Source: Pseudomonadota bacterium (lineage in GTDB: Bacteria; CALINM01). Taken from it: a stretch of DNA of 8,768 nucleotides. The translations under genes and the position numbers were made by a program. How positions within the stretch are numbered: the stretch's first letter is position 1; every line of letters starts with the position of its first letter. This document shows, in pieces, positions 77 through 8,393 of the stretch. A model generated the notes under the pieces. That model was not told where the DNA came from. It did not search any database and was given only the letters and a program-made list of their open reading frames with translations. The DNA is taken from NCBI GenBank assembly GCA_026415985.1, contig JAOAGA010000068.1, positions 1-8,768 of the forward strand, read 5' to 3'.

Positions 77-645
77 TATGACTTCAAATTAAAAGAGAAG
101 AGACGGGTGTAGCTTGGTCCGTCTTTTTTCAGCTCGCTTTTATACAAATGGAACTCTTTAACATCAAAGCTGTATTGAATAGATGGCACCTGCATATCTC
201 TGTACTTAGGGTTTGACTGCAGAAATTTTTTTGTATCTTTAATACGCCCCAGTGTTAAATGACCGTGAAACTCCCTTTTTTCCTTTGGAAAGCCAATCTC
301 TGCTAATTTATTCTCAATCTCCCCTGCCAGTTTTTTTAGTTCTAAGCACTCTTTCAGACCAAGAAAGATAACTCTTGGTATTCTTGCATCGGGGAAGAAA
401 TCTAACTTGTCTAACTCAAGGGTAAAGGCAGAAAAGTTGTTTTTTATTTCATTAAGGCAGTGAGCAATTTTATCTAAAAGTGATGCCTTAACCTCGCCTA
501 AAAACTTTATCGTTATATGCCATGTGTCTTCTTTTGTCCAACGAACATCTTTTAATACTTCTGCAAGATGTTTTTGCAGAGGTATTATTTTGTCAATTCC
601 CTCTCTGTCAATATCTATGGCAACGAAAAGCCTTAGTTTATCCAT
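76..645 (-). CDS. thpR: RNA 2',3'-cyclic phosphodiesterase ThpR (2H phosphoesterase, LigT family)
   Basis: This is a 189-residue cytoplasmic 2H-phosphoesterase. Family members hydrolyse 2',3'-cyclic phosphate RNA ends to 2'-phosphates, and some ligate tRNA halves in vitro, hence the old name 2'-5' RNA ligase. Both catalytic HxT motifs are present: H43-I-T45 within WHITIKFLG, and H129-L-T131 within HGHLTLGR. The spacing and total length are normal for the family, so it looks complete and active. The ATG at 645-643 lies inside the end of the upstream CinA-type gene (8-nt overlap), with a GAGAG Shine-Dalgarno element about 8 nt upstream. The stop codon TAG (78-76) shares its G with the first base of tRNA-Arg. 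A cinA-thpR order next to housekeeping DNA genes is common in bacteria. The physiological substrate is not predictable from sequence. Confidence 0.93.
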   Translation of the reverse strand: MDKLRLFVAIDIDREGIDKIIPLQKHLAEVLKDVRWTKEDTWHITIKFLGEVKASLLDKIAHCLNEIKNNFSAFTLELDKLDFFPDARIPRVIFLGLKECLELKKLAGEIENKLAEIGFPKEKREFHGHLTLGRIKDTKKFLQSNPKYRDMQVPSIQYSFDVKEFHLYKSELKKDGPSYTRLFSFNLKS

Positions 646-4332: not shown

Positions 4333-4650
4333 TTAGTATATTGATCTAATTCGTCCCGTTTTCTTATGTATTATTAATATATCAATTATATTACCATCTT
4401 TGCCGTAGATATTTGCTTCGAAAAATCCTCTCCTTTCTGAAATCTCACCTATTCTTATATCATCGTTTTTCTGATAAAATTTTTTTAAAATTTCTCTTGC
4501 TGAATTAATATCTTTCACTTCAAATCTTTCACCATAAACTCCTCTTCTTCCATCGGGACAGTAGGCACCATAGGGCCTTTTTTGCATTACTGGCTGAGCA
4601 TATGCTTCCATAGTTATTAAAATTATTGATATTAATAAAATATTTTTCAT
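4333..4650 (-). CDS. Small secreted PepSY-like protein
   Basis: This is a 105-residue exported protein. Residues 1-18 form a Sec signal peptide with probable cleavage after AYA (16-18). The N-terminal mature part is rich in Tyr, Gly and Arg and has a single cysteine, C31. The C-terminal part has the layout of a PepSY-like fold: a helix (SAREILKKF), a strand (IRIGEISER), a strand (FFEANIYGKDG), then DILIIHKKTGRIRSIY. Small periplasmic proteins of this shape often sit beside envelope-stress two-component systems. I chose the ATG at 4650 because an AAGGG Shine-Dalgarno (4662-4658) lies 7 nt upstream and the signal peptide begins there. A longer frame from 4770 would overlap the preceding gene and a terminator. 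It follows the Spy-like gene and its terminator, so it may be expressed by partial read-through. The exact function is unknown. Confidence 0.75.
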   Translation of the reverse strand: MKNILLISIILITMEAYAQPVMQKRPYGAYCPDGRRGVYGERFEVKDINSAREILKKFYQKNDDIRIGEISERRGFFEANIYGKDGNIIDILIIHKKTGRIRSIY

Positions 4651-4664
4651 GGATAAACCCTTAT

Positions 4665-4690
4665 AAAAAGGGGGATTATATTCCCCCTTT
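4665..4690 (-). terminator. Intrinsic terminator after the Spy-like gene
   Basis: On the minus strand a 9-bp perfect stem pairs AAAGGGGGA (4690-4682) with TCCCCCTTT (4675-4667) across a 6-nt loop, followed by more Ts to 4665. It starts 3 bp after the Spy-like stop codon. The T tract is short (five, partly in the stem), so termination may be incomplete and allow some expression of the following PepSY-like gene. Confidence 0.8.
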
Positions 4691-4693
4691 ATT

Positions 4694-5071
4694 TTACCAG
4701 CATCTCTTGTTTCTTTTGTTTTTATAGCCATCGCCAAAATAGCAGTTACCGCAATTGTAAAATTGACCATCTTTTATACCATACTTTTCTGCGGTGGCCT
4801 GTATTTTTGTCTGCAATGAGACAATATCCTTTTTCAAGGCGGTTATTTTATCATAATCTTTCTTTTCCTTTGAATATTCCTGCTCTAACTCGATCTTTTT
4901 GGTAAATAAATCATCTCTTAAAGCAATGGTTTCTTTCTGAAATTTTTTCAGATTCTCTACATTTACGCTACTGTAATTTGCATAAAACTTACCACCTCTC
5001 ATAACCCTTGCCTCAGAGCTAACCGCTACAATGAGTAGAAATAACACTAAAGTAACAAAAACCTTTTTCAT
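4694..5071 (-). CDS. Spy/CpxP/ZraP-like periplasmic protein with cysteine-containing tail
   Basis: This is a 125-residue exported protein resembling the periplasmic heavy-metal-sensor/ZraP and Spy/CpxP group, whose members act as periplasmic chaperones or feedback regulators of two-component systems. Residues 1-21 form a signal peptide (K2-K3, hydrophobic core, SSEA). Residues 36-97 form charged amphipathic helices, with the family-like stretch ETIALRDDLFTKKIELEQE. The second LTPEQ-like motif common in the family is not visible. The tail carries C107-G-N-C110 and C124, a possible metal or redox site. I chose the ATG at 5071 because a perfect AAGGAGG (5086-5080) lies 8 nt upstream. The ATG at 5092 would place that ribosome-binding site inside the gene. 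The gene follows the kinase by 75 bp, making it a likely regulon member. Family assignment is by pattern only. Confidence 0.75.
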   Translation of the reverse strand: MKKVFVTLVLFLLIVAVSSEARVMRGGKFYANYSSVNVENLKKFQKETIALRDDLFTKKIELEQEYSKEKKDYDKITALKKDIVSLQTKIQATAEKYGIKDGQFYNCGNCYFGDGYKNKRNKRCW

Positions 5072-5086: not shown

Positions 5087-5133
5087 TTTCATTTTCTTAT
5101 AGTTTAATCTTTCATTTTGAAGAGAATATGGAG

Positions 5134-5153
5134 AAATTATGAAAAATTATGAA
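5134..5153 (-). promoter_or_regulatory. Tandem 10-bp direct repeat, candidate response-regulator operator
   Basis: Two perfect copies of TTCATAATTT lie head to tail (5153-5144 and 5143-5134), overlapping the kinase stop codon and pointing toward the Spy-like gene. OmpR-family regulators typically bind two direct half-sites spaced 10-11 bp apart. Downstream a TATAAG at 5101-5096 could be a -10, which would put the repeat at about -45 to -64, a usual activator position. No good -35 is seen, as is common for activated promoters. The binding role is inferred. Confidence 0.5.
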
Positions 5154-6424
5154 TTTTCAAATTTAATTTTAAACTCTGTCCCTGTGTCTCGTTTACTGTT
5201 AACTGATATCTGCCAACCATGTGCTGAAGCAATCTCTCTTACAATGGATAGTCCGATACCTGAACCATCTTTAAATCTCTTATAAAACCTCTCAAAAATA
5301 AAATTTATGTCTTTCTCATCTATACCAATTCCGAAATCTTTTACAATCAGCTCTTTCTTTTTATTATCCAATCTAACCTCTATATTATCTCCCTCTTTTG
5401 ATGCCTTAATAGCATTTGTCATTAAATTTATAACTAACTGTAAATATAGTTGTTTATCTGCCATAATTATCAAATCTTCAAGATCTGATTTGATTGTCAA
5501 TCCTTTTTCGGCAAGGAGAAGAGCCAACCTTTCCATTGCCCTCTCTGTTACTTCTTTTAGATTAATTTTTTCAGGGTTTAGTTTTAATATGCTCGAATCA
5601 ATCTCTGCTAAATTTTTTATGCCTTCCGTAAGCTTTTCTAATTTTTCTACCTCCTCAAGTAAAGACTCTATATTTTTTTTGTCTGCTTTTGCTATACCAT
5701 CCAGTATTGCGATAAGATTCCCCTTTAAAACTGTTAGAGGTGTTCTTATCTCATGTGAAATGTTAGCTATATTCTGTTTTCTTATATCTTCAAGTCTTTT
5801 AAGTTTTCTTATCATCTCTTCAAAAGCGGAACTTAACTGACCTATCTCATCGGCACTTTTTGTGTTTAGCTTTATATTTAAATTGCCTTTTGATATCTCA
5901 ATGGCACTTTTTGCCATCTCCATTAATGGTTTTGAAATTTTATCAGACAAAAGAATACTTAATATGGCTATTGCAAATAATGATAATATTACTGAAAATA
6001 TCATTATTTCTTTCGATCTTAAAATTAGTAGTTTTATTCTCTCTTCTTCGTAGAAGCCTATTTTTGCAACACCAATCTCATTTCTTTTAAAAAAAAGAGG
6101 ATACTCAGTAAAATATATATTCTTTGTATCGCCACTTTTTGAATAAATGATCCTTTCATTATTATCCAACAAGATAAGTTTTATATGTAATTTCGCTTCT
6201 AAATCTGAGAGCCTCTGGATATCAATTTTCTCCAAATTCTCAAATTTTGCATACTCTCTTTCAATCTCTTCTATTATAAAATAGACACTGTCTTCTCTTT
6301 TTCCATCTATGTATTTATTAATCTCTTCAATAAGATAGTTTCTGACAAAGAATGTAGTGGATAGTGTTATGGATGATACAAAAAAAAGTATTATGAAGAT
6401 TTTTATTTTAAATGTTTTAATCAT
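5147..6424 (-). CDS. Sensor histidine kinase (HAMP, HisKA, HATPase_c)
   Basis: This is a 425-residue inner-membrane sensor kinase. TM1 is at about 7-27 and TM2 at about 139-159, enclosing a periplasmic sensor of about 110 residues. The sensor's second half (LHIKLILLDNNERIIYS, then EIGVAKIGF) looks PAS/Cache-like. A HAMP linker spans about 160-212 (K165-P166-L, D192-E-I-G). The phosphoacceptor is H224 in NISHEIRTPLT. The ATPase domain has its N box at N333-N337, its G1 box at D363-G-I-G367, the F box at F377-E-R-F-Y, and G2 at G387-S-G-I-G-L. All catalytic elements are intact. The start ATG overlaps the response-regulator stop by 8 nt, so the pair is co-transcribed and probably cognate. The signal is not deducible, but the downstream Spy/ZraP-like gene suggests envelope or metal stress. 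No close CpxA or ZraS orthology can be claimed. Confidence 0.95.
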   Translation of the reverse strand: MIKTFKIKIFIILFFVSSITLSTTFFVRNYLIEEINKYIDGKREDSVYFIIEEIEREYAKFENLEKIDIQRLSDLEAKLHIKLILLDNNERIIYSKSGDTKNIYFTEYPLFFKRNEIGVAKIGFYEEERIKLLILRSKEIMIFSVILSLFAIAILSILLSDKISKPLMEMAKSAIEISKGNLNIKLNTKSADEIGQLSSAFEEMIRKLKRLEDIRKQNIANISHEIRTPLTVLKGNLIAILDGIAKADKKNIESLLEEVEKLEKLTEGIKNLAEIDSSILKLNPEKINLKEVTERAMERLALLLAEKGLTIKSDLEDLIIMADKQLYLQLVINLMTNAIKASKEGDNIEVRLDNKKKELIVKDFGIGIDEKDINFIFERFYKRFKDGSGIGLSIVREIASAHGWQISVNSKRDTGTEFKIKFENS

Positions 6425-7118
6425 CCGAATGGCAGGTGAATCTATATCCTAATCCGTAAATTGTCTGAATGCAGTTAATCTCATTGTCTACTTCTTTAAT
6501 CTTGTTTCTGATGTTCTTTATATGGGCGTCAACTGCTCTATCGTAACCATAAAAATCATACCCTAAAGCCCTTTTTATGATTTCTTCCCTGCTAAGAACC
6601 TCACCACCCTTATTTACCAAAATTGATAATATTTTAAACTCCGTCGGTGTTAGATTAACCTTTTTGTCATTTACCAAAAACTCGTATTTAGTTTCATTAA
6701 TTTTAATCTTTCCATTATTAAATGACTTTACAGAAGAAACTCTTTGTTTTTCGTATCTTCTCAAAATATTTTTTACTCGTAACACGATTTCCTTGGGATT
6801 AAAGGGTTTTGTTACATAATCATCGGCACCTAAGGAAAGTCCTGTAAGTTTATCTTCAATCTGAGATTTAGCAGAAAGTATTATAACGGGTATGTTTTGA
6901 GCTTCTTTTATCTCCTGAAGCAGTATCTCTCCCTCAAGGTCAGGTAACATTAAATCAAGAATAACCGCAGAAAAATCTTTTAAACTTGCTGATTCTAAAA
7001 TTTTTCTTGTTTCATGTCCGGAATTTGTTACAGCTACAGAAAAATCGCTGTTTTCTAAATAGGCTTTTAAAAGATTGGCTATTTTATTATCATCTTCTAC
7101 TATAAGAATCTTTTGCAC
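6417..7118 (-). CDS. OmpR/PhoB-family response regulator
   Basis: This is a 233-residue cytoplasmic DNA-binding response regulator. The receiver domain (about 3-120) carries the acidic pair D9-D10, phosphoacceptor D55, switch S81 and K103 in DYVTKPF. The C-terminal winged helix (about 136-229) has the LTPTEFKIL motif, SREEI, the DRAVDAHIKNIRNKI recognition helix region and the IYGLGYRF wing. The start is GTG at 7118-7116. An in-frame TAA at 7130-7128 rules out a longer protein. No Shine-Dalgarno is present. The gene begins only about 25 bp after the terminator of the preceding operon, so its promoter must overlap that short stretch. Its likely targets are its own operon and the downstream Spy-like gene, which has a 10-bp tandem repeat upstream. 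Confidence 0.95.
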   Translation of the reverse strand: MQKILIVEDDNKIANLLKAYLENSDFSVAVTNSGHETRKILESASLKDFSAVILDLMLPDLEGEILLQEIKEAQNIPVIILSAKSQIEDKLTGLSLGADDYVTKPFNPKEIVLRVKNILRRYEKQRVSSVKSFNNGKIKINETKYEFLVNDKKVNLTPTEFKILSILVNKGGEVLSREEIIKRALGYDFYGYDRAVDAHIKNIRNKIKEVDNEINCIQTIYGLGYRFTCHSDD

Positions 7119-7143
7119 AAATATATATTAACACAATGATGGC
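7119..7143 (-). promoter_or_regulatory. Compressed promoter region of the two-component operon
   Basis: Only 25 bp separate the T tract of the upstream terminator from the response-regulator GTG. On the minus strand they contain TAATAT (at about 7129-7124), which could be a -10 about 6 nt before the start codon. The upstream T-rich terminator tail or TTGCC would have to serve as the -35 region. This geometry would give a leaderless or nearly leaderless transcript, in line with the missing Shine-Dalgarno. This is inferred from spacing alone. Confidence 0.3.
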
Positions 7144-7169
7144 AAAAAAAAAGGGGCTTAAAGCCCCTT
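7144..7169 (-). terminator. Intrinsic terminator after the dsrP-like gene
   Basis: On the minus strand the stem AAGGGGCT (7169-7162) pairs with AGCCCCTT (7158-7151) across a TTA loop and runs into nine consecutive Ts (7152-7144). It lies 6 bp after the dsrP stop codon. It is a textbook strong terminator and separates the respiratory operon from the two-component system. Confidence 0.92.
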
Positions 7170-7175
7170 AAATTT

Positions 7176-8393
7176 TTAGTTAGTTTCTTTGTTATATTTG
7201 AGCCTTCCTGTCTCTATACCAATTACAAGCTTGGAGAAAATTGTAAAAAGTAGTAATCCAAGGGCGAAAACTCCTAAAGATACAATCATTTCTACAAGAT
7301 TTGGTGTGTATTCATGAATTTCTCCCAAAACACCGGGGATAAAACCGGGAGTGATGAATGCGTGGCCTTTTTCGATCCAGACCGCAATAAAAATTAAGAC
7401 ACAACCTATATTGAGTAGCTTGATACTTCTGATATTTCTCAAAGATATAAATATCAGGAATGCGGTTATATCAAGAGTAATAGCGGTCCATATCCAGGGT
7501 ACCATTTTATTATGTCCATGCAGACCCTGCATCAGATATTCCATAGGTGCCATATGGACTGAACCGGTATAATATTCCTTGAAAACTTCTGCACCAAAGA
7601 GGAATAAATTAAAAAACATAGCGTACGCCATTATCTCGGCTATCTTAAACAAAGCAACATCTTGGACCTTTATACCACCGTATCTTCTGATTATTTGAAG
7701 TGCAATAATCATCAATGAAGGTCCTGAACAAAATGCCGAAGCCAAAAATCTTGGTGCAAGTATAGCTGAGTTCCAGTAAGGTCTTCCTCCTAATCCGTTA
7801 AATATGAAAGCTGTAACTGTGTGAATACTAATAGCAAAAGGTATGGAAAGCAGTATCAGAGGAATGTAAAATTTTTTGTTTGGATGTTCTCCTGTATAGC
7901 CTTTATAGATGAGATATATAGCAATTACAATATTGAGTATCATATAGCCATTTAAAACAACAACATCCCATGAAAGCATTGAAGCAGGCAGATTAAGTAT
8001 CCCTCCAAGGAATGGCAAAAGATGCCAGAATCTATCAGCTCTACCAACATCAACCATAATAGAGCCTAATACCATCACAATAGCAGAGAAAGCCATTATT
8101 TCTCCGTATATTGCGATCTCCTTTATAGCCTGAAAATGATAGACATAGGCGGGGATGACAAGTAAGACTGCAGCTGCAGCAACACCTACAAAAAAAGCAA
8201 AATTACCTATATATATAGGCCAGATTATATGTTGTTCTAAACTCTCTGGTCCTAACTCCCTTGTAAACTCGTGATAATACCCCCATGCCCCTAAGATTAT
8301 TAAAAATAATAAAAATCCTACCCATGCATAATAGGGGAGACCACCCTTGCATATCTCTTTTATTGAATCTACAATAAATCTTACTATTTTCAT
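7176..8393 (-). CDS. dsrP: DsrP-like NrfD-family integral membrane protein
   Basis: This 405-residue polytopic inner-membrane protein belongs to the NrfD/PsrC family and exchanges electrons between the menaquinone pool and an iron-sulfur partner. About ten membrane helices are visible, for example around 19-40, 58-85, 95-116 and 140-165. The best match I recall is DsrP of the sulfite-reduction-associated DsrMKJOP complex: IGNFAFFVGVAAAAVLLVIP (62-81), D115-V-G-R-A-D-R-F-W-H, a WDVVVLNGY segment, and a GGRPYWNSAILAPRFLASAF segment. The length fits. The ATG at 8393 has AGGGG 7 nt upstream, and the gap to the upstream DsrO-like gene is 18 nt. Pairing with that gene supports DsrP over other NrfD relatives, although PsrC- or Qrc-type complexes share the fold. 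Whether the host has DsrAB and reduces sulfite cannot be seen here. Confidence 0.85.
   Translation of the reverse strand: MKIVRFIVDSIKEICKGGLPYYAWVGFLLFLIILGAWGYYHEFTRELGPESLEQHIIWPIYIGNFAFFVGVAAAAVLLVIPAYVYHFQAIKEIAIYGEIMAFSAIVMVLGSIMVDVGRADRFWHLLPFLGGILNLPASMLSWDVVVLNGYMILNIVIAIYLIYKGYTGEHPNKKFYIPLILLSIPFAISIHTVTAFIFNGLGGRPYWNSAILAPRFLASAFCSGPSLMIIALQIIRRYGGIKVQDVALFKIAEIMAYAMFFNLFLFGAEVFKEYYTGSVHMAPMEYLMQGLHGHNKMVPWIWTAITLDITAFLIFISLRNIRSIKLLNIGCVLIFIAVWIEKGHAFITPGFIPGVLGEIHEYTPNLVEMIVSLGVFALGLLLFTIFSKLVIGIETGRLKYNKETN

Follow-up and report, generated by a model that had tools for sequence, protein, structure and literature searches.

At the junction of a histidine kinase gene and a gene for a Spy-like secreted protein, the stretch of DNA analysed here (8768 nucleotides, called the window throughout) carries a perfect tandem repeat, and the question raised by this arrangement is whether the repeat belongs to an operator through which the neighbouring two-component system controls the Spy-like gene. 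The genes concerned are encoded on the minus strand in the order OmpR/PhoB-family response regulator (6417–7118; Response_reg and Trans_reg_C domains), which is the presumed binder of the site, BaeS-like histidine kinase (5147–6424; HAMP, HisKA and HATPase_c domains), Spy/ZraP-like secreted protein of 125 aa (4694–5071; preceded by AAGGAGG) and small secreted PepSY-like protein of 105 aa (4333–4650). A first-pass annotation of the window had described a perfect 10-bp tandem repeat without mismatch, and such a repeat is present on the minus strand at positions 5153–5134, where TTCATAATTT occurs twice back to back with zero mismatches. It is the sole perfect tandem repeat with a unit of 9–12 bp in the window. 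The two half-sites that had been read from it both exist, but the perfect pair proved to make up the first two of the four copies in a tandem array (5153–5111, minus strand) consisting of unit 1, TTCATAATTT (5144–5153), unit 2, TTCATAATTTC (5133–5143), unit 3, TCCATATTCTC (5122–5132), and unit 4, TTCAAAATGAA (5111–5121). The units are spaced 10/11/11, the first spacing being 10 and not 11. The array lies between the kinase and the Spy-like gene as had been described, except that copy 1 overlaps the last two codons of the kinase; the kinase ORF ends with ...TTT GAA AAT TCA TAA at 5147 and copy 1 covers TCA TAA. Members of this regulator family bind in head-to-tail fashion to direct repeats whose spacing is 11 bp; ArcA sites frequently contain three to five such repeats, and sites with multiple repeats have also been described for OmpR and PhoB (PMC3798270), and the Pho box consists of two 11-nt direct repeats (PMC4415409). 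Since 11-bp direct repeats are documented for the regulator family, the array fits the operator class of this family; a direct-repeat operator has at least two head-to-tail repeats with a centre spacing of about 11 bp, and the array has four such units. It shares with the ArcA, OmpR and PhoB multi-repeat sites a number of repeats, three to five at 11-bp centre spacing, that goes beyond one dimer site (PMC3798270), and differs from them in core sequence and regulator subfamily. We consider it likely that the repeat is half of an OmpR/PhoB-family operator of four half-sites, which would most likely serve the regulator encoded two genes upstream.

The first-pass annotation had cautioned that AT-rich DNA produces such repeats by chance, and 4 of 200 shuffles of the window that preserved dinucleotide composition did produce a perfect unit-10 repeat, which makes the repeat, taken by itself, modest and only suggestive evidence. 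The same result, together with the occurrence of the exact 20-mer in 19 unrelated viral contigs, which is a gauge of chance only, would agree with a chance repeat in AT-rich DNA or with an AT-rich UP-element to which no specific regulator binds. What bears against this explanation is the comparison of three genomes of the phylum, all of them AT-rich drafts: the window's own (G000) and two relatives, G001 and G002, which belong to the same family and to another genus. Because G001 and G002 share that genus, they provide only about two independent comparisons. The gene order kinase–Spy–PepSY is common to all three genomes; in G002 the regulator gene is also adjacent to the kinase, and in G001 a contig end cuts the kinase and the best regulator match lies on another contig. 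The conservation check that had been proposed with the first description found the array, and not its loss, in both relatives with the same gene order (2/2), between the kinase and the Spy-like gene and with a spacing of 11/11/11. The sequence of the gap preceding the Spy-like gene is TTCACAAATTT TTCACAAATTA TCCATAAAATT TCCTCATCCTT in G001 and TTCACAGAATC TTCACAAATCG TCCATAAAATC TCCAAATCTAA in G002. Units 1 and 2 have aligned units in the relatives, with TTCA invariant in both; TCCATA of unit 3 is invariant in 3/3 genomes, and unit 4, near the −35 region, is weaker in the relatives. The kinases of the relatives are only 32–36% identical to the window kinase, yet the array is kept at the same place.

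The best three-unit TYCAYA chain with 10–11 bp spacing scored 18/18 in each of the three gaps, with 0/5000 shuffles per gap reaching this score, and the four-unit chain scored 23/24 in each gap (0/3000 shuffles each), the consensus having been read off the arrays themselves. For that reason a unit matrix built from G001 and G002 alone is the cleaner test, and it located the window array in exact register (0/5000 shuffles). Phased TTCA blocks occur in both relatives at the position that they have in the window, and no shuffle matches them. Conservation already argues strongly against a chance repeat or an UP-element, judged from these alignments, and we regard either as extremely improbable.

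The specificity of the motif was examined genome-wide, as had been suggested with the first description. The pattern TTCANA-(4,5)-TYCANA-(4,5)-TYCANA had 10 matches in the three genomes, and its reversed control had 1. The only non-coding matches were those at the Spy promoters of the three genomes, with two overlapping matches at each promoter, and at one G001 promoter; all the others fell within coding sequence. A sequence model of the array, built from the same sites that it finds, gave one strong match per genome with E values of 1e-7 to 3e-10, the next best being 0.01; the other array-like matches were nearly all inside coding sequence. At E 0.001 this model detected no array in any of the 383 genomes beyond the three of this phylum (386 scanned). 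With a leave-one-out model built from the two relatives, the window site ranked only third in its own genome (E 6.9); a two-sequence model is narrow, and the first spacing in the window is one base short. A scan of genome contigs with the kinase returned distant kinases only.

The position of the array relative to the promoter was considered next to the direction of control. The −10 candidate named in the first-pass annotation, TATAAG, is indeed at 5101–5096 (minus strand), but its position is not kept, as no counterpart was found at the same spacing in either relative. At a distance of 26 nt, counted from where unit 3 starts, there is TAAACT in the window (5106–5101, minus strand) and in G002, and TAGTAT in G001. 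We prefer TAAACT, on a direct reading of the sequence, as the better −10 candidate than TATAAG, its distance from the array being fixed. No good −35 hexamer was seen near unit 4, where the −35 would fall, and this absence, together with the location of unit 4 near the −35 region, fits a predicted activator-dependent promoter. Members of the OmpR/PhoB family act both as activators and as repressors, and the array starts at the kinase stop codon, so that the adjacent regulator could instead repress the Spy-like gene, or the site could mainly block read-through transcription from the kinase. The array ends upstream of the −10 candidate and does not cover it; this, with the missing −35 hexamer, suits activation, and we consider repression or a read-through block very unlikely.

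As to which regulator binds, whether it activates or represses, whether binding depends on phosphorylation and what the signal is, we infer the following scheme of activation by the adjacent two-component system. The BaeS-like kinase would sense envelope or metal stress and phosphorylate the regulator, and the phosphorylated regulator, probably as two dimers, would bind the direct repeats, phased at 10–11 bp, in head-to-tail orientation along a single face of the helix. The promoter-nearest copy would lie at about the −35 position, from where the bound regulator may recruit RNA polymerase to the weak −10 TAAACT. The output would be a transcript encoding the Spy/ZraP-like secreted protein; most transcription would stop at a terminator-like hairpin, and some might read through into the PepSY-like gene. 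The earlier reading that the adjacent regulator acts directly on the Spy-like gene gains support from the conserved array, as far as sequence comparison can tell.

Since assignment to this particular regulator depends on its subfamily, both signalling proteins were compared with known ones. The closest solved structure to the window regulator was E. coli BaeR (1e-44; next 1e-35), and BaeR was also the nearest of 13 E. coli regulators, with a score of 163 against 145 for OmpR, the next. For the regulators of G001 and G002, OmpR and PhoB scored equal to or above BaeR. The three regulators and BaeR have in common the recognition-helix stretch HIKN(L/I)R, which occurs in no other E. coli regulator compared. 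Among eight E. coli kinases BaeS was the nearest in two comparisons, scoring 124 bits with the window kinase (next 85) and 144 bits with the G002 kinase (next 82). The curated cut-offs were not reached, either for BaeR (197 bits vs 380) or for BaeS (183 and 158 bits vs 500 and 603). By these similarities the kinase is nearest to BaeS and the regulator is broadly BaeR-like.

The BaeR box itself was compared in the forms in which it is quoted in PMC3799227. The 18-bp consensus TTTTTCTCCATDATTGGC (Nishino 2005) matched the three gaps at 11, 10 and 9 of 18 positions, no better than shuffles, and the alternative box TCTNCANAA (Yamamoto 2008) matched at 9/9, 8/9 and 9/9, which was equalled by 134, 1198 and 221 of 3000 shuffles. 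The E. coli BaeR targets spy and mdtA have promoters with 10–11-bp phased TYCAT-type blocks, those of mdtA being TTCATAATTCC TCCATTTTTC TCCCTTATTGG. In a 77 kb E. coli stretch chosen to include BaeR targets, the top match of the array model was the mdtA promoter, and the unit matrix ranked the Pho box of phoB at the top and put the BaeR array of spy in fifth place. A firm assignment to the BaeR box was dropped, since the 18-bp consensus showed no enrichment and the unit matrix gave a higher score to the Pho box of phoB. With the finer assignment failing, we class the array as a probable OmpR/PhoB-family operator that resembles both BaeR and Pho sites, and assign it to neither.

Alternatively, the array could be a true operator bound by a different OmpR/PhoB-family regulator, for example one of Pho type, which would place the Spy-like gene in another regulon. 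The best match of the relatives' unit matrix in the 77 kb stretch, the Pho box before phoB, is in line with this, and the genome encodes further regulators of the family. The Pho box of E. coli PhoB and Gram-positive PhoP is likewise built from at least two direct repeats of 11 nt, with TCA(C/T)A as their core, and E. coli phoA, with one repeat pair at a similar distance to the −10 (TGTCATAAAGTTGTCAC...TATAGT), has a geometry close to that of the array. The TTCAYA core of the array resembles the CTGTCAT core there without being identical to it; no phosphate genes are present in the window, and the window kinase is closer to BaeS than it is to the PhoR models. The array travels with the regulator–kinase locus and is almost confined to it, as expected for a local and not a global regulator. 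We consider binding by a different regulator improbable and retain the adjacent, BaeR-like regulator as the preferred binder.

Control of a Spy-type protein by a BaeSR-like system has its counterpart in E. coli BaeSR, where the target is a Spy/ZraP-type protein as well; the difference is that spy lies far from baeSR there, and the target here shares the locus of the two-component system. Two-component systems beside a gene of the Spy/ZraP/CpxP family are also found in CpxRA–CpxP, where the cpxR–cpxP neighbourhood has been observed, and in ZraSR–ZraP. In these cases cpxP is divergent from cpxRA and ZraR is an NtrC-type regulator, whereas the target here lies downstream of the kinase gene in the same orientation. 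The type of switch is well known, and this instance comes from a poorly sampled bacterial group, the phylum being represented here by three genomes; what the analysis adds is the prediction of a specific regulatory link from the adjacent two-component system to a Spy-like envelope protein. A further idea, that the BaeSR-to-Spy link with its TTCATAAT-type multi-repeat operator is ancient and common to the Proteobacteria and this phylum, with the target still in the same locus here, we put forward as rather doubtful. If the BaeSR resemblance holds, Spy-type control of envelope stress would be far older than the Proteobacterial examples; without it, the prediction is that of a sound yet ordinary operator.

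The identity of the presumed target was assessed by profile and by structure. The window protein scored 17.3 bits against Metal_resist (PF13801), under the cut-off of 29.2, and its homologues in the relatives scored 35.5 and 49.6 bits, above it. The protein has a signal-like N-terminus, and its predicted structure is a helical hairpin. The best solved match of the model was ZraP (3lay, chain A; probability 1.00, rmsd 1.0 over 64 columns), with a Foldseek E of about 0.07 and a single-sequence model of mean pLDDT 68. On this model the Spy-like protein would have the secreted alpha-helical hairpin of the ZraP fold. In the window (4694–5071, minus strand) it has one coil unit and a Cys-rich tail, CGNC...C, and in the other genus (L069 5927–6526 and L070 8549–9151, both minus strand) it has a duplicated coil and two cysteines near the N-terminus. 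Directly after the gene there is a terminator-like hairpin (4671–4687, minus strand), found at the same position in G002 (L069 5918–5901, minus strand) and G001 (L070 8541–8519, minus strand) with differing sequences. The presence of this hairpin in three genomes suggests that the Spy-like gene is its own unit, with possible read-through. The PepSY-like gene, which follows it in both relatives as well (L069 5535–5921, minus strand, in G002), is kept in the three genomes, and its product matched no Pfam family above the cut-off.

The first-pass annotation had seen no such repeat before the regulator gene, the PepSY-like gene or ligA, and the array is indeed absent there; with no array upstream of the window regulator gene, autoregulation was not seen. 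The surroundings of this gene vary. A second hairpin separates it from an upstream nrfD-type gene in the window (6417–8393, minus strand), and its G002 counterpart overlaps a gene for an RlmD-like methyltransferase (L069 7948–9959, minus strand); these upstream neighbours differ and the Spy promoter is kept. Upstream of the relatives' regulator genes the chain scored 16–17/18, in G002 within the coding end of the RlmD-like gene. Autoregulation in the relatives was considered and rejected, the G002 score being attributable to coding constraint, and the G001 score, by analogy, probably likewise. A second array of the same kind, with four or five repeats, TACACAATTTT TTCAGAACTTC TTCATAGTTTT TTCACAAATTA, was detected in G001 (L081, G001:C53, about 471–531, plus strand). 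It lies about 60 bp upstream of a gene whose product, a secreted protein of 150 aa, matched no Pfam family and had no homologue in G000 or G002. This array was found by looking, so its 0/3000 shuffles are to be discounted; its presence suggests a small regulon.
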